From positions 2,388,501-2,452,500 of the forward strand of contig NZ_CP056030.1 in assembly GCF_013374995.1 (NCBI RefSeq): DNA of 64,000 bases, read 5' to 3'. This stretch comes from Pseudomonas eucalypticola. Its GTDB lineage: Bacteria; Pseudomonadota; Gammaproteobacteria; Pseudomonadales; Pseudomonadaceae. The notes below the pieces were generated by a model. The model had not been told where the DNA came from, ran no database searches, and saw only the letters and a program-made list of their open reading frames with translations. Within the stretch, counting starts at the first letter, position 1, and each line of letters opens with the position of its first letter. A program made the position numbers and the translations under genes. Positions 40,543 through 54,393 of this stretch are shown one piece after another.

Positions 40543-42684
40543 TCAGCACAGGCAGAACAATGCCACCTGCGGCGCGGCGCTGAGCCATTGGTGACAGATG
40601 CGCCAGCCGCCCAAGGCCGCCATTTCAGTGAACGATTCAACCGTGAACTTGTGCGAATTCTCGGTGTGCAGGCGTTCGCCTTCGGCGAAGTGAAACGCTT
40701 GGCCGGCCACTTGTACCACCTGTTCGCGCTGGCTCACCAGGTGCATTTCCATGCGCTGCAGCTCGGCATTCCACTGTGCCAGGTGGCGGAAGCCCTCCAA
40801 GTCGAAGTCACCGTCCAGCTCGCGGTTCATGCGCTTGAGCAGGTTGAGGTTGAACGCTGCCGTCACACCGCCGGCATCGTCGTAGGCGGCCTCCAGCAAC
40901 GCGGGCGCCTTGACCATGTCGACACCGACGATGAAGTAGGCGTTACGTCCCAGCAGCGTGTGCGCTGACCGCAGGAACTGCACGGCCTGGGGGCGGGTGA
41001 AGTTGCCGATGGTCGACCCGGGGAAGAAGCCCACCCGCGGCTTGCCGTGGGCCGCTTCGGGCAAGCGCAGGGCGCGGGTGAAGTCGTCCACCTGGGGCGC
41101 TATTTCAAGGCTCGGGTAATGCGCGTGCAACCGGCTGGCCGCGCTGTCCAGGGCGTCCTGGCAGATATCGATGGGCACGTAGACGCTGATTTGCGGCGCC
41201 GCATCCAGCACCAGGCGCGTCTTGTCGCTGGCACCGCTGCCAAACTCGACCAGCGCGGCGCCGTCGGGAATCACGGCGCCGATTTCGGCCGCTACGTCCG
41301 TCAGCAGCCGGGTCTCGGCGCGGGTCGGGTAGTACTCAGGTGTGGTGCAAATGGCTTCGAACAGCTGCGAGCCGGCGGCGTCGTAGAAATACTTGGGCGA
41401 CAGCGATTTGTGCGGCGCGGACAGCCCCGCGACCACGTCCCTGGCGAACTCGCTGCTGTAGGCGCCGTGCTGGCAGATGTCCCGCGCCAGGCGCAGGCCG
41501 GAGAACATCCAGCGCAGGCCCGGGGTAAAGAAGTTGCGGTAGCTGGGCCGGCAATGGTCGGGCGAACTGATGCTGGCGCCGCCGCGCAGCACCATCTGGT
41601 TGACCATGAACTTGCCGTTGTACTCGCCCACCGCCGAGGGCGCCGGGTGGAAGCCGGGGTAGGGGCTGTAGGCACTCTGGGTCCACTGCCAGGCGACGTC
41701 GTCCACCTGTTCGAGCAGACCACTGGTGGCGGCCAGTTCCCACTCCGCTTCAGTGGGCAGCCGCGCCTGTGCCCAGGTGGCGAAGGCGCAGGCCTCGTAG
41801 TAGCTGACGTGGGTAACAGGCGCATCAACCTGCACCGGTACCAGGCCCGCCAGGCTCATGACCTGCCATTGTTCACCGTCCTGCTGCCAATACAATGGCG
41901 CCTGCCAACCCTGTTCGCGCACCATCGCCCAGCCATCGGACAGCCACAACCCGGCCGTGGTGTAACCGCCAGCAGCCATGAACTGCAGCCACTGGCCATT
42001 GGTTACCAGACGGTCGCTGATCTCGAATGGCGCCAGGTACACCTTGTGCCGTGGGCCTTCGTTGTCGAAGGCAAAGCCATCGCCGTCATGGCCGATGTCC
42101 ACCAGGCCGCCGTTCAATGCCTTGAAACGGCCTTCGCGACCGGGCGCGTCGGCGGGCCACGCAGGGTCATAGGCGGGCTTGAGGGCCGAGAGGCTGAACA
42201 GGTGCAGAATGTCCATCAACAGCAATTCCTGGTGCTGTTGTTCATGGGCCAGCCCCAGCTCGATCAGTGCCTGGGTCGCAGGGTCGAGGTCCTGGACCAG
42301 CAGGCTACCCATGTGCAGGTCCACGTATTGCCGGTAGGCCATCACCTGTTCCAACGCCGGCCGGGTCATCAACCCGCGCTGTGGCCTGGGTTGGCGGGGC
42401 CCCACGGCCTCGTAGTAGGAGTTGAACAGGTAGGTGAAGCTCGGATCGAATGGGCGGTAGTCGGCGAGGTGGGGCACCAGCAGAAAGGTTTCGAAGAACC
42501 AGGTGATGTGGGCCAGGTGCCACTTGGTCGGGCTCGCGTCTGGCATCGACTGCACCACCATGTCCTCGGGGCTCAGCGGGCTGGCCAGGCGTTCACTGTA
42601 GCGGCGTACCTGACGGTAGCGTTGCAAGCGTTCGTCGGCGAGGGTAGGGAGGGTGTCGAGGGCATGGCGTGGCATCAGGTTCAT
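40543..42684 (-). CDS. egtBD: EgtB-EgtD fusion for ergothioneine biosynthesis
   Basis: 713 aa from the ATG at 42684, with GGAG about 10 bp upstream (the ORF could extend two codons to a TTG). Residues ~1-410 are EgtB: a DinB-like domain with iron ligands in KWHLAHITWFFE and LAHEQQHQELL (H59, H147, H151), then an FGE-sulfatase domain (RLPTEAEWELAA, QMVLRGGASISSPDHCRPSY). Residues ~415-713 are EgtD, the histidine N-alpha-trimethyltransferase (SPKYFYDAAGSQLFEAICTT, LVEFGSGASDKT, GFFPGSTIGNF, ENSHKFT). Together they trimethylate histidine and add sulfur from cysteine or gamma-Glu-Cys. The C-terminal EgtD domain rules out the ovothiol enzyme OvoA. Confidence 0.93.
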   Translation of the reverse strand: MNLMPRHALDTLPTLADERLQRYRQVRRYSERLASPLSPEDMVVQSMPDASPTKWHLAHITWFFETFLLVPHLADYRPFDPSFTYLFNSYYEAVGPRQPRPQRGLMTRPALEQVMAYRQYVDLHMGSLLVQDLDPATQALIELGLAHEQQHQELLLMDILHLFSLSALKPAYDPAWPADAPGREGRFKALNGGLVDIGHDGDGFAFDNEGPRHKVYLAPFEISDRLVTNGQWLQFMAAGGYTTAGLWLSDGWAMVREQGWQAPLYWQQDGEQWQVMSLAGLVPVQVDAPVTHVSYYEACAFATWAQARLPTEAEWELAATSGLLEQVDDVAWQWTQSAYSPYPGFHPAPSAVGEYNGKFMVNQMVLRGGASISSPDHCRPSYRNFFTPGLRWMFSGLRLARDICQHGAYSSEFARDVVAGLSAPHKSLSPKYFYDAAGSQLFEAICTTPEYYPTRAETRLLTDVAAEIGAVIPDGAALVEFGSGASDKTRLVLDAAPQISVYVPIDICQDALDSAASRLHAHYPSLEIAPQVDDFTRALRLPEAAHGKPRVGFFPGSTIGNFTRPQAVQFLRSAHTLLGRNAYFIVGVDMVKAPALLEAAYDDAGGVTAAFNLNLLKRMNRELDGDFDLEGFRHLAQWNAELQRMEMHLVSQREQVVQVAGQAFHFAEGERLHTENSHKFTVESFTEMAALGGWRICHQWLSAAPQVALFCLC

Positions 42685-42741
42685 CAGCAATGGCTCCGCG
42701 GCTGCGTCGTTAGGCGACGTGAGTTGGCGAGATGTCCGGGC

Positions 42742-43250: not shown

Positions 43251-43889
43251 CTACAGGGGAAGGGATGAATTGCTGACGATCGGCCGCTCATGCACCAGCG
43301 CCAGGGTTGCATCCAGCAACTTGACCATCTCGTCTATATCCCGGCGCATCTCGCTGCACACCTGCGGGTTGTCGCACAGCTCCAGGCGCAGCTTGAGCCG
43401 GGACAATGGCGTGCGCAGGTCATGGGACACCGCGCCCAGCACATGACCGCGCTGGCGGAGCTGTTCGCGAATGCGCCATTGCATGCGGTTGAAGGTATGC
43501 GCCGCTTGCCGAGCTTCCAGCAGGCCATTCGCCTGCACGGTCAGCGGCGGGCTGTCGAGGTCTTCGCTCAGGCGCTCGGCCGCGGCACTGAACCGGCGGA
43601 TGGGCCGGGACAAGAGTTTGGCCCCGTACCAGGCCGCGGCCACCAGCGCCGCCATCTGGCATAGCAAAGGCACCATGGGGAAGTCCAGCAACGATGCCGC
43701 GGGCGGCGGCTCACCGGTTTCCAGCAACTGCACCTGCTCGGTGTGGAAGCGTGCGTCTTCCTGAGCCTTGCCGTACGCCTGGAACCACATGAACGCCAGG
43801 CCGTGGGCAAACACGATGGCGATCACGGAAATGCCGAACAGGCGAGCAAACAGGGAGTTGGCGAAACGCGGCAGGCGAAGGCTGGGCAT
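43251..43889 (-). pseudogene. Histidine kinase truncated before the ATPase domain
   Basis: 212 aa. Two membrane helices (LFGISVIAIVFAHGLAFMW and FPMVPLLCQMAALVAAAWYG) flank a very short periplasmic loop. A HAMP region (SRPIRRFSAAAERLSEDLDS) and HisKA with the phospho-His box (LGAVSHDLRTPLSRLKLRLE) follow. The protein then ends after ~45 residues (HERPIVSNSSLPL). No HATPase_c domain is present in any frame before the next gene, 86 bp on. It cannot autophosphorylate in the usual way, and there is no adjacent response regulator. Decayed, or a dominant or accessory fragment. Confidence 0.75.
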
Positions 43890-43972: not shown

Positions 43973-44815
43973 CTATGCATGAAGGCTCGTCGACGCCGAT
44001 GGGCCGCCAAACCAGTACTGCGCAGTGACACCACCGTCCATCAGGAAGTCGCTGCCGGTGATGAACGTGCCCTCGGGCCCCATCAACAGGGCGGCCAGCG
44101 CACCCACTTCATCGGGGGTGCCGCCACGCTTGGCCGCGCAGCTGTCGATCATGCGGCGATAGCCTTCCCCCCGGGGGCCGGCCAGTTCCTCCCGGGCCAG
44201 TGGCGTGAAAATGATGCCTGGGCTGATGGCATTGACCCGCGCACCGCGCTTGCCCCAGCGCACGGCCTCGGCCATCACCCGCAGCGCGTTGGCGCGCTTG
44301 GAGAGCTGATAAGCGTTGAGCGGATCGACCACCACGTCCGGTTGTAGCATGGGCAGCGCCAGCAGTTGTTCCGTCGCGGTCAGCGCCAGGCAATGGTCCT
44401 GTTCGGCGGTCAGGGCCGGCAGGCGGTGGCCGGACTGTGAGGCAATGACCACGGCCGAGCCGCCAGGCGCGATGACGTCACCGAACAGCTCCAGCACCAG
44501 CGCGGTGCCGTAGAGATCCACGCGCAGAATGGTCGCCGGTGGTGCTTGTGAGGGTGAAACCCCGGCGGCATGGATAACCCCACTGATCGGCCCAAGGGCT
44601 TGGGCGGTAGCGACCAGCGCCGCCACCGACTCACGCGACGTGACATCGACGACGGCGGTGCTGGCCTCGAACCCTGCGTCCAGCAGTACCCGGGCTGCGG
44701 CGTCAGCGTTCTGCTGCTTGAGGTCGGCCAGCAGCACTTGCTTGCCGGCGCTGACGCGGCGGGCGATGGCCTGGCCGATGGCGCCTGCGCCAATGACCAC
44801 CGTGACATTTTTCAT
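43973..44815 (-). CDS. SDR-family oxidoreductase
   Basis: 280 aa. Rossmann start VTVVIGAGAIGQAIARRV carries GxGxxGxA rather than the usual TGxxxGxG. The YxxxK active site is in AYQLSKRANALRV, the Ser region is VVIASQSGHRLPAL, and FITGSDFLMDGGV ends the fold. The cofactor should be NAD(P). It follows the cupin gene on the same strand (27 bp) and forms the left arm of the LysR-centred cluster. Confidence 0.85.
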   Translation of the reverse strand: MKNVTVVIGAGAIGQAIARRVSAGKQVLLADLKQQNADAAARVLLDAGFEASTAVVDVTSRESVAALVATAQALGPISGVIHAAGVSPSQAPPATILRVDLYGTALVLELFGDVIAPGGSAVVIASQSGHRLPALTAEQDHCLALTATEQLLALPMLQPDVVVDPLNAYQLSKRANALRVMAEAVRWGKRGARVNAISPGIIFTPLAREELAGPRGEGYRRMIDSCAAKRGGTPDEVGALAALLMGPEGTFITGSDFLMDGGVTAQYWFGGPSASTSLHA

Positions 44816-44842
44816 GGGCGTGGTTCCTCTGCTTTTGGCGTT

Positions 44843-45271
44843 TTACTCGGTGACCAGCACGCCACCGTGGTACTGCTCGTCAGTGACCGGCTCAAGCCAC
44901 TCGACATTCTGGCCGTCGAGCATTTCAGTCACGGCCACGTGGGACATGGCCGTGGTGGCCGCCGCACCGTGCCAGTGGCGTTTGCCACAGGCGCAGGCCA
45001 CGACGTCGCCGGCACGAATCTCGGTACGCGGCCCACCTTCACATTGGGTCCAACCCACACCGCTCAGCACGATCAGAGTCTGGCCCAGTGGGTGGGTGTG
45101 CCAGAAGGTGCGCGCCCCTGGCTCGAAGGTCACGATGGCGCCGCCGACGCGGGCAGGCGCTTCGGCCTGGAAGCGGCTATCGATGCGTACGGCACCGGTA
45201 AACCAGGTGTCTGGACCCTTGATGGAAGCCTGAGTGCCGTTGCGAACGATGGTCTGATTGGGAGTGGGCAT
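44843..45271 (-). CDS. Cytoplasmic cupin-domain protein
   Basis: 142 aa. Single cupin with metal ligands in [19 protein letters not shown] (two His plus later Glu/His) and [11 protein letters not shown]. No signal peptide. Resembles small cupins linked to carboxymuconolactone-decarboxylase-like proteins, including the family of bacterial mandelonitrile-lyase-like cupins. Paralogous to the exported cupin at 53.1 kb (shared [10 protein letters not shown] and [10 protein letters not shown]). First gene of the leftward operon; the dyad at 45362-45386 lies about 90 bp upstream. Confidence 0.87.
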
Positions 45272-45361
45272 GGGAAGGTCCTGGTCGATGAAAATGAACG
45301 CGTAGGCGCTTGGTGGCCTATCTTAGGGTGTTCGAACTCATCGATTAATATAGGTAAAGTG

Positions 45362-45430
45362 AATGAGCTTATGAGGGTGGCTCATTAATGATAACGGGGA
45401 CCAGGGGCTATCATTGATGAGTGCTGCTCA
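45362..45430. promoter_or_regulatory. Candidate LysR operators between the cupin and LysR genes
   Basis: AATGAGC (45362-45368) and GCTCATT (45380-45386) are perfect arms 11 bp apart, a T-N11-A-like geometry. A second site TTGATGAGTGCTGCTCA at 45414-45430 contains TGAG-N5-CTCA. The same TGATGAGC core recurs before the other units of this cluster. Confidence 0.55.
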
Positions 45431-45535
45431 GCGCTTCGATTAGCCCTGCTCAGCAATAGTCCAAGGCCATGCTCGGTACAATGGCAGGTGATGCTTTAGG
45501 CGATGCTTGCAGTCGCCCCTAGCCTGGAGACGTTC

Positions 45536-46453
45536 ATGCAAATCAGCCGGGCCAATCTGGCCGACTTCGTTTATTTCCTCGCCATAGCGCGCCATCAGAG
45601 TTTCAGCCGGGCCGGGCTTGAGGTGGGCATCAGTGCCTCGGCCCTGAGCCACGCCATGAAGGGCCTGGAGGCGCGAATGGGCATCCGCTTGTTCAACCGC
45701 ACCACGCGCAGCGTGACGCTAACGGCGGCTGGGGAGGAGCTGCACAGCCTGATCGGCAAGCCGTTCGATAAAATCGGCCAGGCGATGGAAGTCATCAACC
45801 GCCACCGCGATGAGCCTGGGGGACGCATCCGCTTGAATACGTTGAGCGATGCCGCCGAGCTGCTGTTGGGGCCGGTACTGCCGGTGTTCAACGACCGCTA
45901 CCCGGAAGTGGAAGTCGATCTGACGGTTACCAACCGCATGGTGGATGTCATTGGCGGTGGGCATGACGCGGGCATTCGATACGGCGGCACGGTACCGGAG
46001 GACATGATCGCGCAACGGCTGTCCCCCGACATCCGTTGGGTGGTCGTCGCATCTCCTGAGTATCTGCAACGCTTCGGCATACCCGAGCATCCCAATGATC
46101 TGGCCAGGCATCGGTGCCTGTGCATTCGCCTGGGCAATGATCGGATGTACGAATGGGAGTTCGACAATGGGAGCAAACAGCTGGAAATTGCCGTCCCCGG
46201 GGCTATCACCATCGACGAGACGCGCATCGGGGTTGCCCTGGCACGCAACGGGGCCGGCCTGATGTACGTTCCTGAACCTGTTGTAGCACCTCTGGTACAA
46301 AGCGGGGCATTGGTGCGTGTGCTGGATGACTGGGCCAGTGTTGCACCGGGATTTCACCTGTACTACTCCAGCCGCCGGCAGTTGCCGGTGGGTTTGCGGT
46401 TACTGATCGATCTGGTTCGCGAACTGCAACCGATGGGTGATATCGACGGCTGA
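45536..46453 (+). CDS. LysR-family regulator of the oxidoreductase cluster
   Basis: 305 aa from the ATG at 45536, with GGAG 7 bp upstream; a longer ORF start lacks a signal. Helix-turn-helix: FSRAGLEVGISASALSHAMK GLE-type (ASALSHAMKGLEARMGIRLF), with the LysR effector domain carrying the RYGGTVPEDMIAQRL and DETRIGVALARNGAGL segments of the CrgA/AaeR-like branch. Divergent from the cupin gene and followed by the exporter gene, so it probably controls both arms. Inducer unknown. Confidence 0.9.
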   Translation: MQISRANLADFVYFLAIARHQSFSRAGLEVGISASALSHAMKGLEARMGIRLFNRTTRSVTLTAAGEELHSLIGKPFDKIGQAMEVINRHRDEPGGRIRLNTLSDAAELLLGPVLPVFNDRYPEVEVDLTVTNRMVDVIGGGHDAGIRYGGTVPEDMIAQRLSPDIRWVVVASPEYLQRFGIPEHPNDLARHRCLCIRLGNDRMYEWEFDNGSKQLEIAVPGAITIDETRIGVALARNGAGLMYVPEPVVAPLVQSGALVRVLDDWASVAPGFHLYYSSRRQLPVGLRLLIDLVRELQPMGDIDG

Positions 46454-46487
46454 AGGGGAGGGGCAGCAGTCGCCGTGTCTCGATTAC

Positions 46488-46510
46488 TGAGCGTTATTCA
46501 TTAGGTCATC
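46488..46510 (+). promoter_or_regulatory. Shared dyad motif upstream of the exporter operon
   Basis: Starts TGAGCGTTATTCATTAGG and ends TCATC, 82 bp before the exporter ATG. It matches the site at 51077-51099 in 17 of 23 positions by hand alignment. Likely the same regulator. Confidence 0.5.
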
Positions 46511-46591
46511 TCATTTACCCCCGGTACTCAAGTGGCTGTGCGTTGCGTAGGGTGGGCCGCATTCGCTTCCCCCTACTACTACGGAGTACGC

Positions 46592-47839
46592 ATGAGCCCC
46601 TTGGACGTTCTTGCCAAACGGCAACACGCCACAATCGATTGCCCTTCGGCGGCGGGAGAATCTCATGGCCTGCGTATCCTGCTGATCCTCAGCACATTGC
46701 TGGCCTTTGCTTCGATTTCCACCGACCTTTACCTGCCGGCGATGCCGGTCATGGCCCAGGCGCTGCACGCGAACAGCGGCACGTTGGAATTGACGGTCAG
46801 TGGCTACCTGATTGGCTTCAGTGTGGGCCAATTGTTCTGGGGGCCGTTCAGCGATCGGTTTGGCCGCCGCTTGCCTGTGGCGCTTGGCCTTGGGCTGTTC
46901 ATCATCGGTTCGGCTGGCTGTGCGCTGGCGGCCAGTGGGCACGCCATGATCGGCTGGCGCGTGGTCCAGGCGATCGGTGCCTGTGCCAACGTGGTGCTGG
47001 CACGTGCCATGGTGCGCGACCTGTACGCAGGGCGCGCAGCCGCGCAAAAGATGTCGACCTTGATGACCATCATGGCCATCGCGCCGCTGGCAGGCCCGAC
47101 GCTGGGCGGCCAGATCATGCACCTGGCTTCATGGCAGGCGATTTTCTGGGTGTTGGTGCTGGTTGGCCTGCTGACCCTCGCCAGCCTGACGCTGTTGCCC
47201 GAAACCTTGCCAGCCACCCGCCGCGCACCCACCTCGCTGGGCGCCATTGTTTCTTGCTACGGCGCGCTGCTGCGCAATGCGCGGTTCCTGGGCTACGCCG
47301 CGGCTGGCGGGTTCTTCTATGCCGGCACGTTCGCCTATATCGCCGGCTCACCGTTTGCCTACATCAGCTATCACCACGTGCCGGCACAGCTGTACGGGCT
47401 GCTGTTCGCCGCCGGCATCGTCGGGGTGATGGCCACCAACCAGGCGAATGCTCGACTGCTCAACCATTACCACAGCGACACGCTGTTGATGGTCGGTGCC
47501 CTGATGGCCGGGGGCGCTGGGCTCATTCTGGCACTCAATACCTGGGCTGACTTCGGCGGCCTGCCACTGCTGGTCGTCGGCTGCTTCCTGTTCGCCTCGT
47601 CCACGGGCTTTGTGGTCGCCAACTCGGTAGCAGGTGCGTTGAGCTGTTCAGGGCAGTTCGCGGGCTCTGCCTCGGCCTTGGCCGGCGCCCTGCAGTACGG
47701 CTGCGGCATTCTCGGCTCGGCCTTGGTCGCAGCGTTCGCCGATGGCACGCCATGGCCCATGGGTTGGGTCCTGGCGGTCTGCGGCGTTGGCTGTGTGATC
47801 AGCGCGGCCTGTGTACGGCGGGCAGCCAGACAACATTGA
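46592..47839 (+). CDS. Bcr/CflA-type MFS efflux transporter
   Basis: 415 aa from the ATG at 46592, with GGAG upstream. Twelve hydrophobic helices; STDLYLPAMPVMAQALHANS and LIGFSVGQLFWGPFSDRFGRR are the family hallmark. Proton-driven export of drugs or metabolites. First gene of a rightward unit with an SDR and a PQQ dehydrogenase, so it may export or relieve a toxic substrate or product of the pathway. Confidence 0.9.
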   Translation: MSPLDVLAKRQHATIDCPSAAGESHGLRILLILSTLLAFASISTDLYLPAMPVMAQALHANSGTLELTVSGYLIGFSVGQLFWGPFSDRFGRRLPVALGLGLFIIGSAGCALAASGHAMIGWRVVQAIGACANVVLARAMVRDLYAGRAAAQKMSTLMTIMAIAPLAGPTLGGQIMHLASWQAIFWVLVLVGLLTLASLTLLPETLPATRRAPTSLGAIVSCYGALLRNARFLGYAAAGGFFYAGTFAYIAGSPFAYISYHHVPAQLYGLLFAAGIVGVMATNQANARLLNHYHSDTLLMVGALMAGGAGLILALNTWADFGGLPLLVVGCFLFASSTGFVVANSVAGALSCSGQFAGSASALAGALQYGCGILGSALVAAFADGTPWPMGWVLAVCGVGCVISAACVRRAARQH

Positions 47840-47864
47840 TTCATCCTGATATGAGGTTCTCATC

Positions 47865-48629
47865 ATGACGTTTGCATTCGACAATCAAGTGGCACTGGTC
47901 ACCGGCGCTGCTTCGGGTATCGGCCTGGCCGCCGCCAAGGCGTTCGCCCAGGCCGGGGCTTCCGTAGCCTTGGCTGACCTTGATGGCGACGCTGTGCGTG
48001 CCGTGGCCCAAGCGCTGAATGACGCCGGGTTCAAGGCCATCGGTATCCCGTGTGACGTATCCGACATCGCCCAGGTGGAAGCACTGGTCAAGCGTACCGT
48101 GGCTGAACTGGGTGGCCTGGACGTGGCCTTCAACAACGCCGGTATTCAGAACGTGCTGGCCGAGACGGCCGACGCCAGTGTTGAGGACTACGACCGCGTC
48201 ATGTCGGTCAACCTGCGTGGCGTATGGGCGTGCATGAAGTTCCAGCTGCAGCATATGCGCCAGCAGGGCAGTGGCAGCATCGTCAACTGCTCATCCCTGG
48301 GTGGCCTGGTGGGGGGCGCCGAGCGCGCCAACTACCACGCGGCCAAGCATGGCGTGATCGGCCTGACCAAGAGCGCAGCGTTGGAATACGCCGCACGCAA
48401 CATCCGTGTGAACGCGGTATGCCCAGGCCTGATCTGGACACCCATGGTCGATCAGATGGTCGCTTCCGGCCAGGGCGAGGCCATGGACGGGATGATCAAG
48501 GCTATCCCCATGGCGCGTCCCGGCCGCCCTGAAGAAATCGCCGATACCGTGCTGTGGCTCAGCAGTAGTCGGGCCAGCTATGTCACCGGCCAATCCATCT
48601 CGGTGGATGGCGGCTTCATCATGCGTTGA
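47865..48629 (+). CDS. Classical SDR oxidoreductase
   Basis: 254 aa. TGAASGIG at the N terminus, NNAG in DVAFNNAGIQ, catalytic Ser in NCSSLGGLVGGAERANYHAAKHG with the YxxxK pair, and VNAVCPGLIWTPM. Full set of classical SDR motifs, NAD(P)-dependent alcohol/ketone interconversion. 25 bp after the exporter gene; probably co-transcribed. Confidence 0.92.
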   Translation: MTFAFDNQVALVTGAASGIGLAAAKAFAQAGASVALADLDGDAVRAVAQALNDAGFKAIGIPCDVSDIAQVEALVKRTVAELGGLDVAFNNAGIQNVLAETADASVEDYDRVMSVNLRGVWACMKFQLQHMRQQGSGSIVNCSSLGGLVGGAERANYHAAKHGVIGLTKSAALEYAARNIRVNAVCPGLIWTPMVDQMVASGQGEAMDGMIKAIPMARPGRPEEIADTVLWLSSSRASYVTGQSISVDGGFIMR

Positions 48630-48659
48630 TTCCCCCTCGTCACGATCAAGGAAGTTCTC

Positions 48660-51035
48660 ATGCCTCAACCGAATTCTGTCAAGGTCGGCGCAGCCCTGTA
48701 TGTCCTGGGTGCGCTCATCGTGCTGGTCGGGCTGTTCATGCTCGCCGGGGGTGCATGGCTGATCGCCCTCGGCGGCTCCTGGTACTTCGCCCTGGCCGGC
48801 ATCGGGCTACTCATTGCCGGGGGGCTGATAGCGTGTCGGCGCCTGTCCGGGGCTGGGTTGTACGTGTTGGTATTCGGTTGTTCCGCCATCTGGGCTGCGT
48901 TTGACGCTGGCCGGGCATTCTGGCCATTGTTTTCACGGCTGTTCGCGCTGGCTGTACTGGCCGTGCCGGTGCTGCTGGCGATGCCTGCCCTGAACAGCAC
49001 CCGAGGGCGAGTGCCTCGCAGTGCGGCTTTCACGCTGGCCGGACTCTGCGTGATTGCCCTGGGCGCGACCCTTTATGCAGCCCTGCAGCCGCAGCCCTTG
49101 CAGACGGCCGAAAACGCCGTCCCTGCGGTCGCGGGCAAGGCCGTGGGCGGTATACAGCCGGCGGGCGACTGGCGCTATTTTGGGCGTACACCATCGGGTA
49201 CCCGCCATGCCGAACTGGACCAGATTACCCCCGCCAATGTCGCTGGCCTGAAGCTCGCCTGGACCTACCACACCGGCGAAGTTCCTTCCGGTAGCCAAGG
49301 CCACGTGGTGACGCCGCTGCACGTCAACGGTGTGCTGTATGGCTGCACCCAGTCCAGCCAGCTATTTGCCCTGGACGCCGACACCGGCAAGGAACTGTGG
49401 CGTTTCAATCCCAAGGCCCAGGCCAATAACGTCTACCCCCGCTGTCGGGGGGTGGGCTATCACGATGATACGGCCAATGTGTCTGCGCCGGCGTCGGGCG
49501 CACCACGGGCTGCCTGTACCCGCCGGATCATCGCGACCACGGTAGATGCCCATATCGTCGAAGTCGACGCCGACACCGGCAAGGCCTGCAGCGATTTCGG
49601 TGACAACGGCAGCGTCAGCCTGCGCATGGGCATGGGGTCGGATCATCAGGACCTGTATTTTCCCACCGCCGCGCCCACGGTGGTGCGTGACCTGATCGTG
49701 GTAGGGGGGCTGGTGTGGGACAACCAGACGGTGGGCGAGCCTTCTGGGGTGGTCCGCGCGTTCAACGTGCACACGGGGGCGTTGGTATGGGCGTGGGATG
49801 TGGGCGACCCCTCCATCACCCGGCTGCCGCCGGAGGGCCAGCACTACACGCCGGGCACGCCGAATGTGTGGTCCACGCCCGCCTTCGACGAGACCCTGGG
49901 GCTGATCTACCTGCCCACCGGCAATGCCACCCCGGACTTCTGGGGCGGCGAGCGCTCGGCGGCCGATGATCGCTACTCATCCTCCATCGTCGCGCTGGAC
50001 ATCGCCACCGGGCGTGAGCGCTGGCATTTCCAGACCACTCACCACGACCTGTGGGATTACGACGTGCCGTCGCAACCGGCGCTCTACGATGTGCCCGACG
50101 GCCATGGTGGCACGCTGCCTGCGCTGATCCAGACCACCAAGCGCGGCCAGATCTTCATGCTGGACCGGCGCACGGGCACGCCGATCGCCAAGGTCGAGGA
50201 GCGCCCAGTACCCCAAGGCGGCGTTGCCGACGAGCGCCTGTCGCCAACCCAGCCCTATTCGGTGGGCATGCCGTCGATTGGTACGGAACCTTTGACCGAG
50301 GCGCGCATGTGGGGGCTGACCCCGCTGGATCAGCTGATGTGCCGCATCGAGTTTCGCCGCGCCCGGTATGAGGGGGAGTTCACCCCACCCAGCGAGCGTT
50401 TGACGATTCAGTACCCTAGCTGGCTGGGTGGCATGAACTGGGGCTCGGTGTCCATTGCCGAGAATCTGGGCTACATGATCTTCAACGATACCCGCGTACC
50501 GATCTGGAATCGCATGGTCAGCAGGGAGGCGTATGACAAGGCTTCATTGGCAGGGGGCGGGCACGAAGGTAATGCGCCTCAGCGCGGTACGCCATGGGGC
50601 ATAGAGCAGGGGCGCTTCCTCTCGCCACTGGGTGTGCCGTGCCAGCAACCGCCCTACGGCACCATCACCGCCATTGACCTGGCGACCCGCCAGGTCGCCT
50701 GGTCCATGCCCTTGGGCACCACTGAGCAGACCGGGCCATTGGGCATCGCCACGCACCTGCCCATGCCCATCGGCATGCCCACCCGTGGCGGGCCCATTAC
50801 CACGTCCTCCGGCCTGATCTTCGTAGGTGCCAGTCAGGATTTCGACTTTCGTGCGTTGGATGTAAGGACGGGGCGGCAGTTGTGGAAAGCGCGTTTGCCG
50901 GTCGGCGCGGAAGCGACCCCCATGACCTATGTGTCACCGCGCAGTGGCCGTCAGTACGTCGTCATCAGTGCCGGCGGCAATTCGGCCACCACGCAAAAGG
51001 GTGATTACGTACTGGCGTTTGCGCTACCGAAGTAA
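48660..51035 (+). CDS. Membrane-bound PQQ-dependent dehydrogenase (glucose/quinate/shikimate family)
   Basis: 791 aa; GGAAG upstream. Five N-terminal membrane helices precede a periplasmic eight-bladed PQQ propeller. Typical segments: PAGDWRYFGRTPSGTRHAEL, GHVVTPLHVNGVLYGCTQSS, ERWHFQTTHHDLWDYDVPSQ, NWGSVSIAENLGYMIFNDTR, MPIGMPTRGGPITTSSGLIF. It oxidises a polyol or sugar in the periplasm and passes electrons to ubiquinone. I cannot tell glucose from quinate/shikimate specificity. The neighbouring SDR and hydrolase argue against the housekeeping glucose enzyme. Confidence 0.9.
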   Translation: MPQPNSVKVGAALYVLGALIVLVGLFMLAGGAWLIALGGSWYFALAGIGLLIAGGLIACRRLSGAGLYVLVFGCSAIWAAFDAGRAFWPLFSRLFALAVLAVPVLLAMPALNSTRGRVPRSAAFTLAGLCVIALGATLYAALQPQPLQTAENAVPAVAGKAVGGIQPAGDWRYFGRTPSGTRHAELDQITPANVAGLKLAWTYHTGEVPSGSQGHVVTPLHVNGVLYGCTQSSQLFALDADTGKELWRFNPKAQANNVYPRCRGVGYHDDTANVSAPASGAPRAACTRRIIATTVDAHIVEVDADTGKACSDFGDNGSVSLRMGMGSDHQDLYFPTAAPTVVRDLIVVGGLVWDNQTVGEPSGVVRAFNVHTGALVWAWDVGDPSITRLPPEGQHYTPGTPNVWSTPAFDETLGLIYLPTGNATPDFWGGERSAADDRYSSSIVALDIATGRERWHFQTTHHDLWDYDVPSQPALYDVPDGHGGTLPALIQTTKRGQIFMLDRRTGTPIAKVEERPVPQGGVADERLSPTQPYSVGMPSIGTEPLTEARMWGLTPLDQLMCRIEFRRARYEGEFTPPSERLTIQYPSWLGGMNWGSVSIAENLGYMIFNDTRVPIWNRMVSREAYDKASLAGGGHEGNAPQRGTPWGIEQGRFLSPLGVPCQQPPYGTITAIDLATRQVAWSMPLGTTEQTGPLGIATHLPMPIGMPTRGGPITTSSGLIFVGASQDFDFRALDVRTGRQLWKARLPVGAEATPMTYVSPRSGRQYVVISAGGNSATTQKGDYVLAFALPK

Positions 51036-51076
51036 GGACGAATCGTCCCGACGCCAGCGCTGCGCAGGTCTATTGA

Positions 51077-51099
51077 TGAGCGTTGCTTATAGGTTCATC
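51077..51099 (+). promoter_or_regulatory. Shared dyad motif upstream of the hydrolase operon
   Basis: TTGATGA (51073-51079) and TCATCAA (51095-51101) are perfect inverted arms 15 bp apart. The core TGAGCGTTGCTTATAGG ends in TTCATC. It lies about 80 bp before the hydrolase ATG and is related to the sites at 46488 and 53003. Confidence 0.55.
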
Positions 51100-51177
51100 A
51101 AGTTTTCCCCGGCTAGTGAGCGGTAGTTCGTCAACGTACAGTTGAGTCATTCTCTGCACAAAGGCGAATTACCCTCC

Positions 51178-52200
51178 ATGCCGCTCATCAGATCATCGAT
51201 GCTCACCGCTGCAATCCTCGCGTCTCTGTCCCCCGTTGCCCAGGCACAAGCGCCCACCACCGTTGCCCAGGGGGTCAATGTGATCGGCGCTGAAAAAGTC
51301 GTGTTCCGCAACGGAGCCGTAAACATGGCCGGTAACCTTTACCTGCCTGATGACTACGACAGCGCCAAGCGCTACCCGGCCATCGTGGTTGCCCACCCTT
51401 GGGGCGGTGTCAAAGAGCAGACCGCAGGCCTTTACGCCCAGCAGTTAGCGCACAAGGGCTTCGTGACCCTGGCGTTCGACGCGTCCCATTACGGCGAAAG
51501 CGGCGGTGAGCCGCGGGACCTTGAGAGCCCGGCTGATCGTGTAGCCGACATCCGTAGCGCCGTGGGCTACCTGGCCAGTTTGAAACAGGTTGACCCCAAT
51601 CGTATCGGCGCCGTCGGCATCTGCGCTGGCGGCGGCTACACCCTCAACGAGGCCCAGACGGATTTGCGGGTCAAGGCAGTGGCAGGGGTGGTGACCTATG
51701 ACATTGGCGATGCGACGCGCACTGGCATCCAGGGCATGCCCGTGACTGCTGCTGATCGTCAGACACTGCTGAAGACCGTCGATGCCCAGTTGAACAAAGA
51801 AGCGGCAGGGGCGCCCGTCCTTGTGCAGCCGTTGCTGCCTCCCCGTGACACGCTGACAGCAGCTTCACCCAGCTTTCTGCGCGAAGCGACCGACTACTAC
51901 CTGACGCCACGGGGTGCCCACCCCAACGCTCACAACCGATTCGTGGTCACCAGCCCCGGTTTGCACATGGGCTACTACCCGCTGGAACACATGGAGCTGA
52001 TCGCACCGCGCCCCGTGTTGTTGATTGCCGGCGAGCGCGCCGAGACTCTCACGTTCAGCCAGGCAGCCTTCGCCAAGGCGCAGCAGCCCAAGGAGTTGTA
52101 TGTCATTCCAGGGGCCTCGCATTTCGATCTTTACGACAAGACTCAGTACGTCACGCCTGCTGTTGCCAAGCTTGCGGGCTTCTTCGCCCAGGCTCTGTGA
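51178..52200 (+). CDS. Exported alpha/beta hydrolase, dienelactone-hydrolase-like
   Basis: 340 aa from the ATG at 51178, chosen because it starts a clean signal peptide (MLTAAILASLSPVAQAQA). Nucleophile elbow AVGICAGGGYT carries Cys instead of Ser, as in dienelactone hydrolase; Asp is likely in the LIAGERAE region and His in GASHFDLYDKTQ. AHPWGGVKEQTAGLYAQQLA is a typical oxyanion segment. Would hydrolyse an ester or lactone in the periplasm. Followed 38 bp later by a CMD gene. Confidence 0.85.
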   Translation: MPLIRSSMLTAAILASLSPVAQAQAPTTVAQGVNVIGAEKVVFRNGAVNMAGNLYLPDDYDSAKRYPAIVVAHPWGGVKEQTAGLYAQQLAHKGFVTLAFDASHYGESGGEPRDLESPADRVADIRSAVGYLASLKQVDPNRIGAVGICAGGGYTLNEAQTDLRVKAVAGVVTYDIGDATRTGIQGMPVTAADRQTLLKTVDAQLNKEAAGAPVLVQPLLPPRDTLTAASPSFLREATDYYLTPRGAHPNAHNRFVVTSPGLHMGYYPLEHMELIAPRPVLLIAGERAETLTFSQAAFAKAQQPKELYVIPGASHFDLYDKTQYVTPAVAKLAGFFAQAL

Positions 52201-52238
52201 CGTTTTCCTCTGTATTTCACTGACTCAAGGTACCGACC

Positions 52239-52952
52239 ATGGATAACCCATCTTTCGTTGCCCAGCCTTCGCTGGACGATATTGAAGCCGTCGCACCCGC
52301 CCTCAAGCATTTCACCCAGACCGTCGTGCAGGGCCAGTTGTGGACCAACCCCGACCTGAACGACCGTGACCGTAGCCTGGTGACACTGGCCGCCGCCGTT
52401 GCCCGCAACCACCTGGTGCAATTGCAGCCGGCCTTGGAACAGGCGCTGACTCATGGCGTAAAGCCGGCTGAAATTTCCGAGCTGATCACCCACCTGGCGT
52501 TTTACTCGGGGTGGGGCAACGCCATGGCCGCCGTGTTGCCCGCCAAGGCAGTGTTCGAGCGCCACAGCGTGGCGGCTGCCGATTTGCCGGGCGTGGCGTG
52601 CGAGCGCCTGCCGCTGGACGAGGAGAGCGAGCGCCAGCGCGCCACCGCCGTACAGGGCAACTTTGGTCATGTGGCCCCCGGCGTGGTGAAGAACACCACG
52701 GATTGCCTGTTTCTGGACCTGTGGTTGCGTCCGGATCTGGCCCCGCGGGACCGCAGCCTGGTGACGGTGACGGCATTGGTGTGCGCCGGGCAGGTGGCCC
52801 AGGTGACCTACCACTTGAACCGGGCGATGGACAACGGCCTGACGCAGCCGCAGGCGGCGGAAATGCTCACGCAGCTGGCGTTCCATGCCGGCTGGCCGAA
52901 CGTTTTCTCGGCCATGCCGGTCTTCAAGGATGTGTTCGCCAGCCGTAGCTGA
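52239..52952 (+). CDS. Tandem carboxymuconolactone-decarboxylase (CMD) domain protein, cytoplasmic
   Basis: 237 aa. Two CMD domains: one around LNDRDRSLVTLAAAVARN ... [20 protein letters not shown], the second around [20 protein letters not shown] ... [20 protein letters not shown]. Neither has the CxxC of AhpD, so a decarboxylase-like or lactone-handling role is more likely than peroxidase. No signal peptide. Paralogous to the lipoprotein at 53.6 kb. Confidence 0.88.
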   Translation: MDNPSFVAQPSLDDIEAVAPALKHFTQTVVQGQLWTNPDLNDRDRSLVTLAAAVARNHLVQLQPALEQALTHGVKPAEISELITHLAFYSGWGNAMAAVLPAKAVFERHSVAAADLPGVACERLPLDEESERQRATAVQGNFGHVAPGVVKNTTDCLFLDLWLRPDLAPRDRSLVTVTALVCAGQVAQVTYHLNRAMDNGLTQPQAAEMLTQLAFHAGWPNVFSAMPVFKDVFASRS

Positions 52953-53002
52953 CTTTATTCAGTGGAAGGCAACAGAAGCCGCTGGCCGATCGCAGGTATT
53001 GA

Positions 53003-53017
53003 TGAGCTCGGTTCATC
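53003..53017 (+). promoter_or_regulatory. Shortened dyad motif upstream of the exported cupin
   Basis: TATTGATGAGC precedes GGTTCATC (GATGA-N7-TCATC), a compressed version of the site at 51077. It is about 95 bp before the exported cupin start. Confidence 0.4.
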
Positions 53018-53110
53018 GCTTCGTTGAACAGACGGTGGGTACTCATTGCGGGTTCCCTCGGCTAACGTCCGATCAGGCTTGTTTGGAAGGTCCCCACCAA
53101 GGAGTGATTG

Positions 53111-53593
53111 ATGAGAGCACTGGCGATACTGGTAACCACCCTGATGTCCTGCACCGCGGTCCTGGCCGCGCAGGTGCCCGGCGAGAAGGCAATGAGCATC
53201 GTCAGAAATGGCGAGCAGCCGTCCATCATGGGCGCGCCTGGCAACTTTGTCGGCAATGCCCGTATCGATCCGCTGATCGCACCGCGCGCACCTTCCACGG
53301 TGTCGGCAGGGGCGGTCACCTTCCAGCCGGGTGCCCGTTCCGTCTGGCACACCCATCCACTGGGCCAGACCCTGGTGGTCACCGCTGGTACTGGCTGGAT
53401 CCAGCAGGAAGGCGGGGAGAAACAGGTGATCAAGCCCGGTGACGTCATTTGGACGCCGCCGGGCGTCAAGCATTGGCATGGGGCCACCGCCACCACCGGA
53501 ATGACCCACATCGCTATCCAGGAGTCGCGTGACGGCAAGAATGTCGAATGGCTGGAGCCGGTCACTGACGTGCAATACGAGGCTTCGCGATGA
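53111..53593 (+). CDS. Exported cupin-domain protein
   Basis: 160 aa from the ATG at 53111, with GGAG 6 bp upstream. Signal peptide [20 protein letters not shown] targets it to the periplasm. Cupin motifs [21 protein letters not shown] and [21 protein letters not shown] give the usual three His and a Glu for a metal. Paralogue of the cytoplasmic cupin at 44.8 kb. Overlaps the next gene as ATGA. Confidence 0.9.
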
Positions 53594-54393
53594 CAGTGCT
53601 CAAAACGGCTGTCGCTTCGTTTTCCGTGCTATTGGCCGCCTGTGCAGGCCATGACAAGGCTGCCAGCCAGGCGCCCGCGGTGCCCAGCCTCGAGGACGTG
53701 CGTGCGGTGTCGCCGGCACTGGCCCGCAACACCGAATCGTTGCTGCTGGGGGAGGTGTGGAAGCGACCCGGCTTGTCACCCCGGGACCGTAGCCTGGTCA
53801 CCGTGGCGGTCCTGATTGCTCGCAACCAGACGGTCGAAATGGCCTACCACTTCAACCTTGCGCTGGACAACGGCGTCACACCGGCTGAACTGTCAGAGAC
53901 CATCAACCACCTGGCGTTCTACAGCGGATGGGGCAGTGCCACTGGCACGATCTTGATCGCCAAGGACGTCTTTGCCAGGCGCCACATTGGCGCAGAGCAA
54001 CTGGCCCCGGTGTCACCGTCGCTGCTGCCCATCGACCAGGCCTCGGAGCAGGTGCGCACCGCCTATGTCGACAGGGTCGTGGGGCCGGTTTCCCCAGGGC
54101 TGGTGCACTACACCAGCGCGGCGCTGTTTCACGACCTGTGGCTGCGACCAGGCCTGGCGCCGCGTGATCGCAGCCTGATTACGGTGAGTGCGTTGATCGC
54201 CACTGGCCAGGTGGCACAGCTGGGCGCGCACTTGAACCGCGCCATGGACAACGGCCTGACCCAGGCGCAGGCCTCGGAGATGCTGACCCAATTGGCGTTT
54301 TATGCGGGGTGGCCGAATGTGTTCACGGCGGTGCCGGTGGTTAGCGATGTCTTTGCCGCTCGGCAGAAGGCTGCGTCGAACACGTTGCAATGA
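53590..54393 (+). CDS. Tandem CMD-domain lipoprotein
   Basis: 267 aa. The signal peptide ends in the lipobox LLAAC (Cys ~19), so it is membrane-anchored in the periplasm. Two CMD domains ([79 protein letters not shown]). Paralogue of the cytoplasmic CMD protein, translationally coupled to the exported cupin. Cupin and CMD probably act in one reaction sequence; inferred. Confidence 0.88.

Follow-up and report, generated by a model that had tools for sequence, protein, structure and literature searches.

LysR-type transcriptional regulators combine a helix-turn-helix domain with a substrate-binding domain and typically read a palindromic box of the T-N11-A type; a divergent adjacent target and activation-type spacing also mark the class. 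Here we describe a cluster of ten genes (positions 43973-54393) around one lysR gene, at 45536, in Pseudomonas eucalypticola, within a window of 64,000 nucleotides (contig NZ_CP056030.1, 2,388,501 to 2,452,500) from a 6.4-Mb genome. The cluster resembles the class in both protein domains, in a T-N11-A palindrome, in a divergent target beside the regulator and, apparently, in activation-type spacing. It departs from the class in its half-site, ATGAG/CTCAT, and in its target set, for which we found no described regulator among the matches listed in the literature. LysR regulons as such are commonplace. In the literature searched, which does not cover most subscription journals, none of the matches listed described the box, the target set or the pairing of cytoplasmic with exported enzymes.

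The nearest NCBIfam model to this LysR is that of Escherichia coli YafC (NF040888), which neighbours the carbonyl reductase DkgB and is listed among uncharacterised regulators in PMC9068703. We rejected an identification as YafC: the score of 143.2 bits is far below the cut-off of 470, the proteins are 28% identical, and no box lies near yafC/dkgB. According to PMC3958847, E. coli PaoABC detoxifies aldehydes; in several relatives of our cluster a PaoABC unit headed by the box stands beside the orthologous LysR. The P. eucalypticola cluster has a pyrroloquinoline quinone (PQQ) dehydrogenase and no PaoABC, whereas some relatives have both. The cluster most like ours in gene content is on Rhizobium rhododendri pTi6.2 (L126), which shares the membrane PQQ dehydrogenase (65% identity), an aldo/keto reductase (AKR), a carboxymuconolactone-decarboxylase-like (CMD) protein, LysR, two cupins and a short-chain dehydrogenase/reductase (SDR). 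It differs in gene order, in an extra PQQ sugar dehydrogenase and in having no hydrolase or major facilitator superfamily (MFS) transporter in the stretch examined. According to PMC3426412, the ‘COE’ targets of ECF41 sigma factors include CMD-type and oxidoreductase genes, as here, but control is by a sigma factor and the promoter motif is another one. MexT, a Pseudomonas LysR regulator of mexEF-oprN that responds to aldehydes, differs in its consensus, ATCA(N)7CGAT, and in its target, a resistance-nodulation-division pump (PMC11144800).

A shared palindromic box precedes five units

By gene spacing the cluster comprises five units: cup1-SDR1, lysR, MFS-SDR2-PQQ, hydrolase-CMD1 and cup2-CMD2 (cup, cupin). 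The element they share is a 15-bp palindrome, ATGAG-N5-CTCAT, of the T-N11-A type (Table 1); beside the box at 46487 there is an overlapping 9/10 site at 46500. A sequence-only reading of the window had proposed dyads of the form TGATGAGC...TCATC some 70-100 bp before each unit. The dyads proved real at all five, but their register was wrong and was re-aligned to ATGAG-N5-CTCAT, and the distance from box centre to start codon measures 95-112 bp (cup1 107, lysR 112, MFS 98, hydrolase 95 and cup2 102 bp). We dropped the original register, of which, with gaps of 0-20, just two copies occur in the window (51074 and 53000), with unequal spacers and 0.04 expected by chance.

Across the genome, exact palindromes occur in two places, at 45371 and before a distant SDR gene, compared with none for the reversed control pattern. 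Allowing up to one mismatch gives 56 sites versus 32 for the control. Six of the 56 (45371, 45417, 46500, 49966, 51076 and 53002) fall between 45371 and 53016, where about 0.1 would be expected; the 46487 box has two mismatches and is therefore outside the 56. The exact copy far from the cluster, at G000:C1:3685127-3685141 (L100 about 1500; L158:2628), matches the promoter model described below with an expectation value (E) of 0.017, and the SDR gene that follows it is likely a sixth unit of the regulon.

The box is conserved in relatives

Loci with related LysR genes came from a single scan, and we used the best 80 of 141, whose encoded LysR proteins are 59-85% identical to that of the window. 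The 17 closest (L001-L017; 337,504 bp) comprise 15 from Pseudomonas and two named only as gammaproteobacteria (L001 and L007); the other 63 (L018-L080) amount to 1,203,391 bp. Flanks of 6 kb are complete on both sides of LysR in 15/17 and 51/63, the remainder ending at contig ends, and genes in unannotated loci are longest-open-reading-frame guesses.

With a spacer of 5, exact palindromes number 15 in the closest loci and 18 in the other 63; at each other spacer from 0 to 12 there are 0-2 and 0-1, respectively, a drop to background that led us to reject spacers other than 5. The proposal of one regulon with a shared dyad held up in a phylogenetic footprint, which found the dyads conserved in orthologous units. 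In L001-L017, cup2 has 11 orthologues, and each is preceded by a 9-10/10 box at a distance of 90-120 bp from the start. Where SDR2 heads a unit, the box lies 98-125 bp upstream in three loci (L001, L004 and L008), a 9/10 box precedes MFS by 216, 167 and 139 bp in L003, L010 and L017, respectively, and lysR has a 10/10 box 94-99 bp upstream in 4/17 loci. The 49966 box, a 9/10 match inside the PQQ gene with counterparts in L002, L003 and L012, probably reflects coding sequence. From such comparisons, the assignment of the five units to one predicted regulon is well supported.

Some relatives carry paired boxes. Upstream of cup2 they are exactly 78 bp apart in seven loci (L002, L003, L006, L007, L010, L012 and L015), a constant spacing that could point to looping or to a pair of divergent promoters kept in phase. 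Pairs before SDR2 are 77 bp apart in L004 and 37 in L017.

Promoter layout and model scans

We aligned on the box 36 promoters, namely the five of the window and 31 others hand-picked from 44 sites of at least 9/10 in L001-L017. The 13 sites omitted include three within the PQQ gene; the other 10 are the second box of a pair, boxes by sister-clade genes or sites without an evident unit. Outside the box, ATT at -4 to -2 and CAT at +20 to +22 are conserved, and a -10-like TAnnnT lies near +61 to +66. A occurs at +39 in 36/36 promoters and T at +38 in 32/36, both beyond the box used for selection; in the window promoters A+39 is found in 5/5 and TA at +38/+39 in 4/5. A matrix made from the 31 non-window promoters places the window sites at ranks 1, 2, 4, 5 and 6 of 127,848 placements, rank 3 being the 45417 box in opposite orientation. 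Their scores are 23.2-49.4, compared with 8.8 for the next placement and 9.5 for the best in 20 dinucleotide-shuffled windows. When the box columns are removed, the MFS promoter still ranks 1 and that of cup1 10 in the window.

For wider scans we built a 77-bp model from 30 non-window promoters of other organisms, one of the 31 being excluded as near-identical to another. In the P. eucalypticola genome, where scoring covered 150 of the 667 first-look candidates, it gives seven matches at E<=10, six in the cluster and one before the distant SDR gene. The best genome match is the 46487 box, and 4/5 matches at E<=0.04 are in the cluster. As controls, 149 genomes were sampled from the same genus; the LysR is present at E<=1e-120 in 11 of them, the P. 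eucalypticola genome among these. Model matches at E<=0.02 occur in 9/10 same-genus genomes with the LysR and in 2/10 without it, in a comparison that partly overlaps the training loci, several of the nine matching genomes being training genomes. One genome without the orthologue (G009) encodes a 38% identical LysR with three boxes of at least 9/10 around aldo/keto reductase, cupin and hydrolase genes; the match in another (G007) lies in an unrelated region, with what we take to be helicase-like and LexA-like reading frames, and looks like chance. In G051 no scored target family lies within 6 kb of LysR and a cup2-box-MFS-SDR2-PQQ cluster is found about 2.1 Mb away; the regulator would therefore act at a distance there. 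On this comparative evidence, the boxes are very probably read by LysR 45536.

Recurring neighbours point to a reactive carbonyl

Within 6 kb of LysR, the 17 closest loci hold a cupin in 11, CMD in 9, SDR in 8, a PaoABC-type enzyme in 7, MFS in 5, a YahK-like alcohol dehydrogenase (ADH) in 4, a PQQ enzyme in 4 and AKR in 2. The corresponding counts in the other 63 are cupin 39, SDR 28, AKR 23, MFS 15, Pao 13, CMD 9, hydrolase 4, PQQ 2 and YahK-like ADH 2. Membership of the hydrolase and the PQQ enzyme varies among loci. Nor are the periplasmic oxidases a plain exchange of one for the other: some relatives have PaoABC and others the PQQ dehydrogenase, but L015 and L033 have both. Six of the seven Pseudomonas Pao loci (L011 and L013-L017, not L009) have a 9/10 box ahead of the Pao unit; PaoA and PaoC score above the cut-offs of their models in L011, and PaoC aligns to E. 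coli PaoC with 1066 bits. Beyond Pseudomonas, Sinorhizobium pAK76 carries cupin-CMD-AKR, LysR and paoA, the last with a 9/10 box whose centre lies 106 bp upstream, a Bradyrhizobium plasmid has LysR-MFS-paoABC with a model match before MFS, and a Skermanella plasmid also has a model match before MFS. In Enterobacter mori (L122), AKRs and an alkene reductase adjoin a 60% identical LysR.

Because PaoABC, AKR, cupin, CMD and SDR genes recur as neighbours, a reactive carbonyl of the aldehyde type is our best guess for the substrate and the most likely one. The sequence-only reading had favoured a lactone, ester or polyol on the strength of family names; the recurring PaoABC and AKR neighbours favour the carbonyl instead.

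In E. coli, one 9/10 box lies before paoA in 3/3 strains (L118:5197-5211, L160:6799-6813 and L161:6810-6824). Since chance would give 0.33-0.36 matches with up to one mismatch in two 13.6-kb stretches and the promoter model, applied to the K-12 stretches, finds nothing at E<=1, a link of this box to the same system is only suggestive. Beside prophage CP4-6 and paoD, K-12 yagP is the C-terminal remnant (96% over 113 aa) of a LysR gene that E. coli L26 has at full length (L159:1882-2292 and L162:5787-6686 for this comparison). At the yagP site two LysR genes occur together with MFS, hydrolase and SDR genes in both L26 and NZRM3614. In two of the closest loci (L002:10954-12156 and L003:10917-12125) a YahK/Ahr-like zinc dehydrogenase adjoins CMD2 and has, by eye, a twin-arginine-like signal; judging from this signal, an NAD(P)-type enzyme is apparently exported there. 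The L003 copy scores 264.7 against NF047908, whose cut-off is 470.

A proposed pathway in two compartments

By signal prediction the cupin and the CMD protein are doubled, one pair being cytoplasmic and the other exported. Among orthologues at 60% identity or more, a Sec-type N-terminus is found in 10/12 for cup2 (counting L007, whose start is misread, and L046, without a readable start) and in 0/12 for cup1. Under 60% identity the split blurs: in L029, a cup1-like cupin of 57% identity appears to be preceded by a signal sequence. The lipobox cysteine is present in 7/8 CMD2 orthologues (not L017). The conserved signal peptides bear out the earlier suggestion of a regulon spanning cytoplasm and periplasm.

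We propose that LysR 45536 would bind the boxes and, with a small ligand, activate transcription from a start about 65 bp beyond the box centre, which the conserved -10-like bases at about +61 to +66 would fit; the box in the lysR/cup1 interval would give autoregulation. The signal would be a reactive carbonyl (aldehyde or ketone) or a derivative, as the recurring neighbours suggest. Outside the inner membrane, the PQQ dehydrogenase, the exported hydrolase, the cupin and the CMD-like lipoprotein would process the carbonyl; inside, the SDRs, the other cupin and the other CMD-like protein would do so, and the Bcr/CflA pump would export the remainder.

We know of no settled physiological role for mandelonitrile-lyase cupins and CMD-like proteins beside this LysR. 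Here, proteins of these two kinds are linked by a precise operator to a regulator and to aldehyde-handling enzymes. The operator offers a reporter and five promoters for direct inducer screening, and it is a rule for finding more members in other genomes, as well as the distant SDR gene of P. eucalypticola. With a cytoplasmic and an exported version of both kinds of protein, the cluster is a testable case of one pathway divided between two compartments.

Weighing the explanations

Taken as a whole, the data are best explained, in our moderately confident view, by five units forming one LysR regulon that responds to a reactive carbonyl. A number of observations weigh against this explanation. 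Some concern the promoters: with the box columns removed, those of the hydrolase (rank 57), cup2 (133) and lysR (423) do not stand out, and across the genome the cup1 box gives a weak match (E 0.78). Autoregulation is not general, because lysR has no box of at least 9/10 within 250 bp in 13/17 of the closest loci and its promoter spacing varies between species. LysR proteins about 38-41% identical also adjoin the same box elsewhere, so the box is not unique to orthologues of LysR 45536 and may be common to a sister clade as well. In one genome with the LysR (G026) the promoter model finds nothing, and in 72 loci of other genera and plasmids it gives 20 matches at E<=1, nine of them at E<=0.02. 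None of the listed partners lies within 6 kb of LysR in 1/17 and 4/63 loci, and E. mori L122 has no box with fewer than two mismatches. The pTi6.2 cluster shows the gene partnership and not the operator, because its LysR is just 38% identical and it has neither a box with fewer than two mismatches nor a model match. Finally, the carbonyl reading is made by association for this cluster, because its own genome has no close PaoC (best relative 40% identity); Pfam and NCBIfam models find no PaoA or PaoC among the ten window genes.

Other explanations draw on parts of the same evidence. A catabolic regulon, in which the exported hydrolase would open an ester or lactone, the PQQ enzyme and SDRs would oxidise the alcohol and the CMD proteins and cupins would process the product of a lactone, ester or polyol, fits the dienelactone-hydrolase-like exported protein, the glucose/quinate/shikimate family of the PQQ enzyme, an SMP-30/gluconolactonase-type gene beside the related LysR in E. 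mori and the PQQ sugar dehydrogenase in the Rhizobium pTi cluster. We nevertheless consider it unlikely: hydrolase relatives lie within 6 kb in just 4/80 LysR loci, the CMD proteins score 90.6 and 116.6 bits, under the 155.7-bit cut-off of the PcaC decarboxylase model TIGR02425, the PQQ enzyme lacks a residue aligned to E. coli Gcd His262, no ring-cleavage or acid-CoA enzyme is among the ten genes, and the transporter belongs to an efflux family. Less probable still is a reactive-chlorine or oxidative stress regulon, in which cupins, SDR and AhpD-like CMD proteins would repair or scavenge after hypochlorite. PMC9751292 reports links of a cupin, SDRs and LysR regulators with chlorite dismutase, and it cites a part of an AhpD-family protein in resistance to chlorine. 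However, the cupin reported there may be of another family than cup1 and cup2; moreover, no chlorite dismutase or methionine sulfoxide reductase is among the ten genes, and by eye both CMD sequences lack the AhpD-type CxxC pair.

We see a very slim chance that the cluster disposes of plant cyanohydrins, with the cupins as hydroxynitrile lyases and the oxidoreductases handling the released aldehyde. In its favour, both cupins exceed the cut-off of the (R)-mandelonitrile lyase model and closely resemble 4bif, and the loci of relatives often have an aldehyde oxidoreductase nearby; however, no cyanide-handling gene is among the ten, and the lyase activity of such cupins may be an in-vitro side reaction. 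It is just as improbable that another LysR of the same broad subfamily binds the boxes and LysR 45536 is a bystander. The genome has 91 LysR-like matches, LysR 45536 included, and the distant relatives adjoining the same box elsewhere would suit a bystander; against it, the two closest own paralogues (40% and 37%) have no box of at least 9/10 in their 8.5-9-kb loci, and model matches largely track the presence of the LysR 45536 orthologue.

Within the carbonyl-responsive regulon that we prefer, a broader version is tentative and more doubtful than the regulon itself: a mobile family of LysR regulons with ATGAG-N5-CTCAT might govern carbonyl defence in alpha- and gammaproteobacteria, with a strain-variable oxidase module (PaoABC, PQQ or both) and a duplicated cupin/CMD pair that does a carbonyl-processing step, possibly C-C or cyanohydrin cleavage.

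Genes of the cluster and neighbouring frames

All genes named in the sequence-only reading are present, as judged by sequence and by Pfam and NCBIfam models (Table 1).

Table 1. Boxes and genes of the cluster (window positions; bit scores are given with model cut-offs where available; E, expectation value with the 77-bp promoter model)
Feature	Positions	Strand	Details
Box for cup1-SDR1	45371-45385	-	ATGAGCCACCCTCAT, 10/10; E 0.78 genome-wide, 0.0078 in window
Box before lysR	45417-45431	+	ATGAGTGCTGCTCAG, 9/10; E 0.037; - orientation toward cup1 E 5.4
Box for MFS-SDR2-PQQ	46487-46501	+	CTGAGCGTTATTCAT, 8/10; model match 46482-46555, E 1.4e-6
Box for hydrolase-CMD1	51076-51090	+	ATGAGCGTTGCTTAT, 9/10; E 5.6e-4 genome-wide
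Box for cup2-CMD2	53002-53016	+	ATGAGCTCGGTTCAT, 9/10; E 0.0032 genome-wide
SDR1, SDR family oxidoreductase, PRK06940 subfamily	43973-44815	-	NF005395, 434 bits vs 280
cup1, cytoplasmic cupin, (R)-mandelonitrile-lyase family	44843-45271	-	NF049940, 184.7 bits vs 140; without signal peptide
LysR-type regulator	45536-46453	+	Helix-turn-helix PF00126 and substrate-binding PF03466, both above cut-off
MFS transporter, Bcr/CflA efflux family	46592-47839	+	TIGR00710, 284.9 bits vs 200.9
SDR2, short-chain dehydrogenase	47865-48629	+	PF13561 (Pfam)
Membrane-bound PQQ dehydrogenase, glucose/quinate/shikimate family	48660-51035	+	TIGR03074, 986.4 bits vs 832.65
Exported dienelactone-hydrolase-like alpha/beta hydrolase	51178-52200	+	PF01738; hydrophobic N-terminal signal
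CMD1, two-domain CMD-like protein, cytoplasmic	52239-52952	+	PF02627, 2 stretches; N-terminal signal not detected
cup2, Sec-exported cupin, (R)-mandelonitrile-lyase family	53111-53593	+	NF049940, 182.2 bits vs 140; signal peptide
CMD2, two-domain CMD-like lipoprotein	53590-54393	+	PF02627; lipobox LLAAC; 4-bp overlap with cup2

The PQQ enzyme is 77-78% identical to copies in L002, L003, L010 and L012 and 65% to the Rhizobium pTi copy, and it groups with these. It is 39% identical to E. coli Gcd and separates from Gcd and from the four own-genome paralogues used in the comparison (L135-L138, without the copy at C1:2250932), which, at the level of sequence, makes it a clade of its own inside the glucose/quinate/shikimate family. 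His262 of E. coli Gcd has a known functional role; the alignment shows a gap at its column in our enzyme, and the residues aligned with Asp466, Lys493 and Asn355 are retained. In the whole genome, six membrane PQQ dehydrogenases score above the cut-off of TIGR03074.

Relatives of cup1 among Protein Data Bank (PDB) entries are 4bif and 4uxa. The residues HTH...Q and HWH of 4bif are metal-site ligands, and this pattern is present in cup2 (by alignment) and in cup1 (by eye). The CMD2 relative in the PDB is 4g9q (272 bits). The hydrolase at 51178 scores 86.5 bits with the UilS lactonase model NF047920, under the cut-off of 400, and several of the closest loci hold SDR2 copies at 78-83% identity. 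A foreign origin of the cluster by base composition was rejected: its guanine-cytosine (GC) content of 0.60-0.66 in 2-kb windows is inside the range of the flanks. Next to SDR1, a 212-aa sensor-kinase-like frame (43251-43889, minus strand) has HAMP and phospho-acceptor regions and, by eye, apparently no ATPase domain. Farther out, a 715-aa frame at 40543-42690 on the minus strand resembles what we take to be fused EgtB-type and EgtD-type (ergothioneine) proteins.

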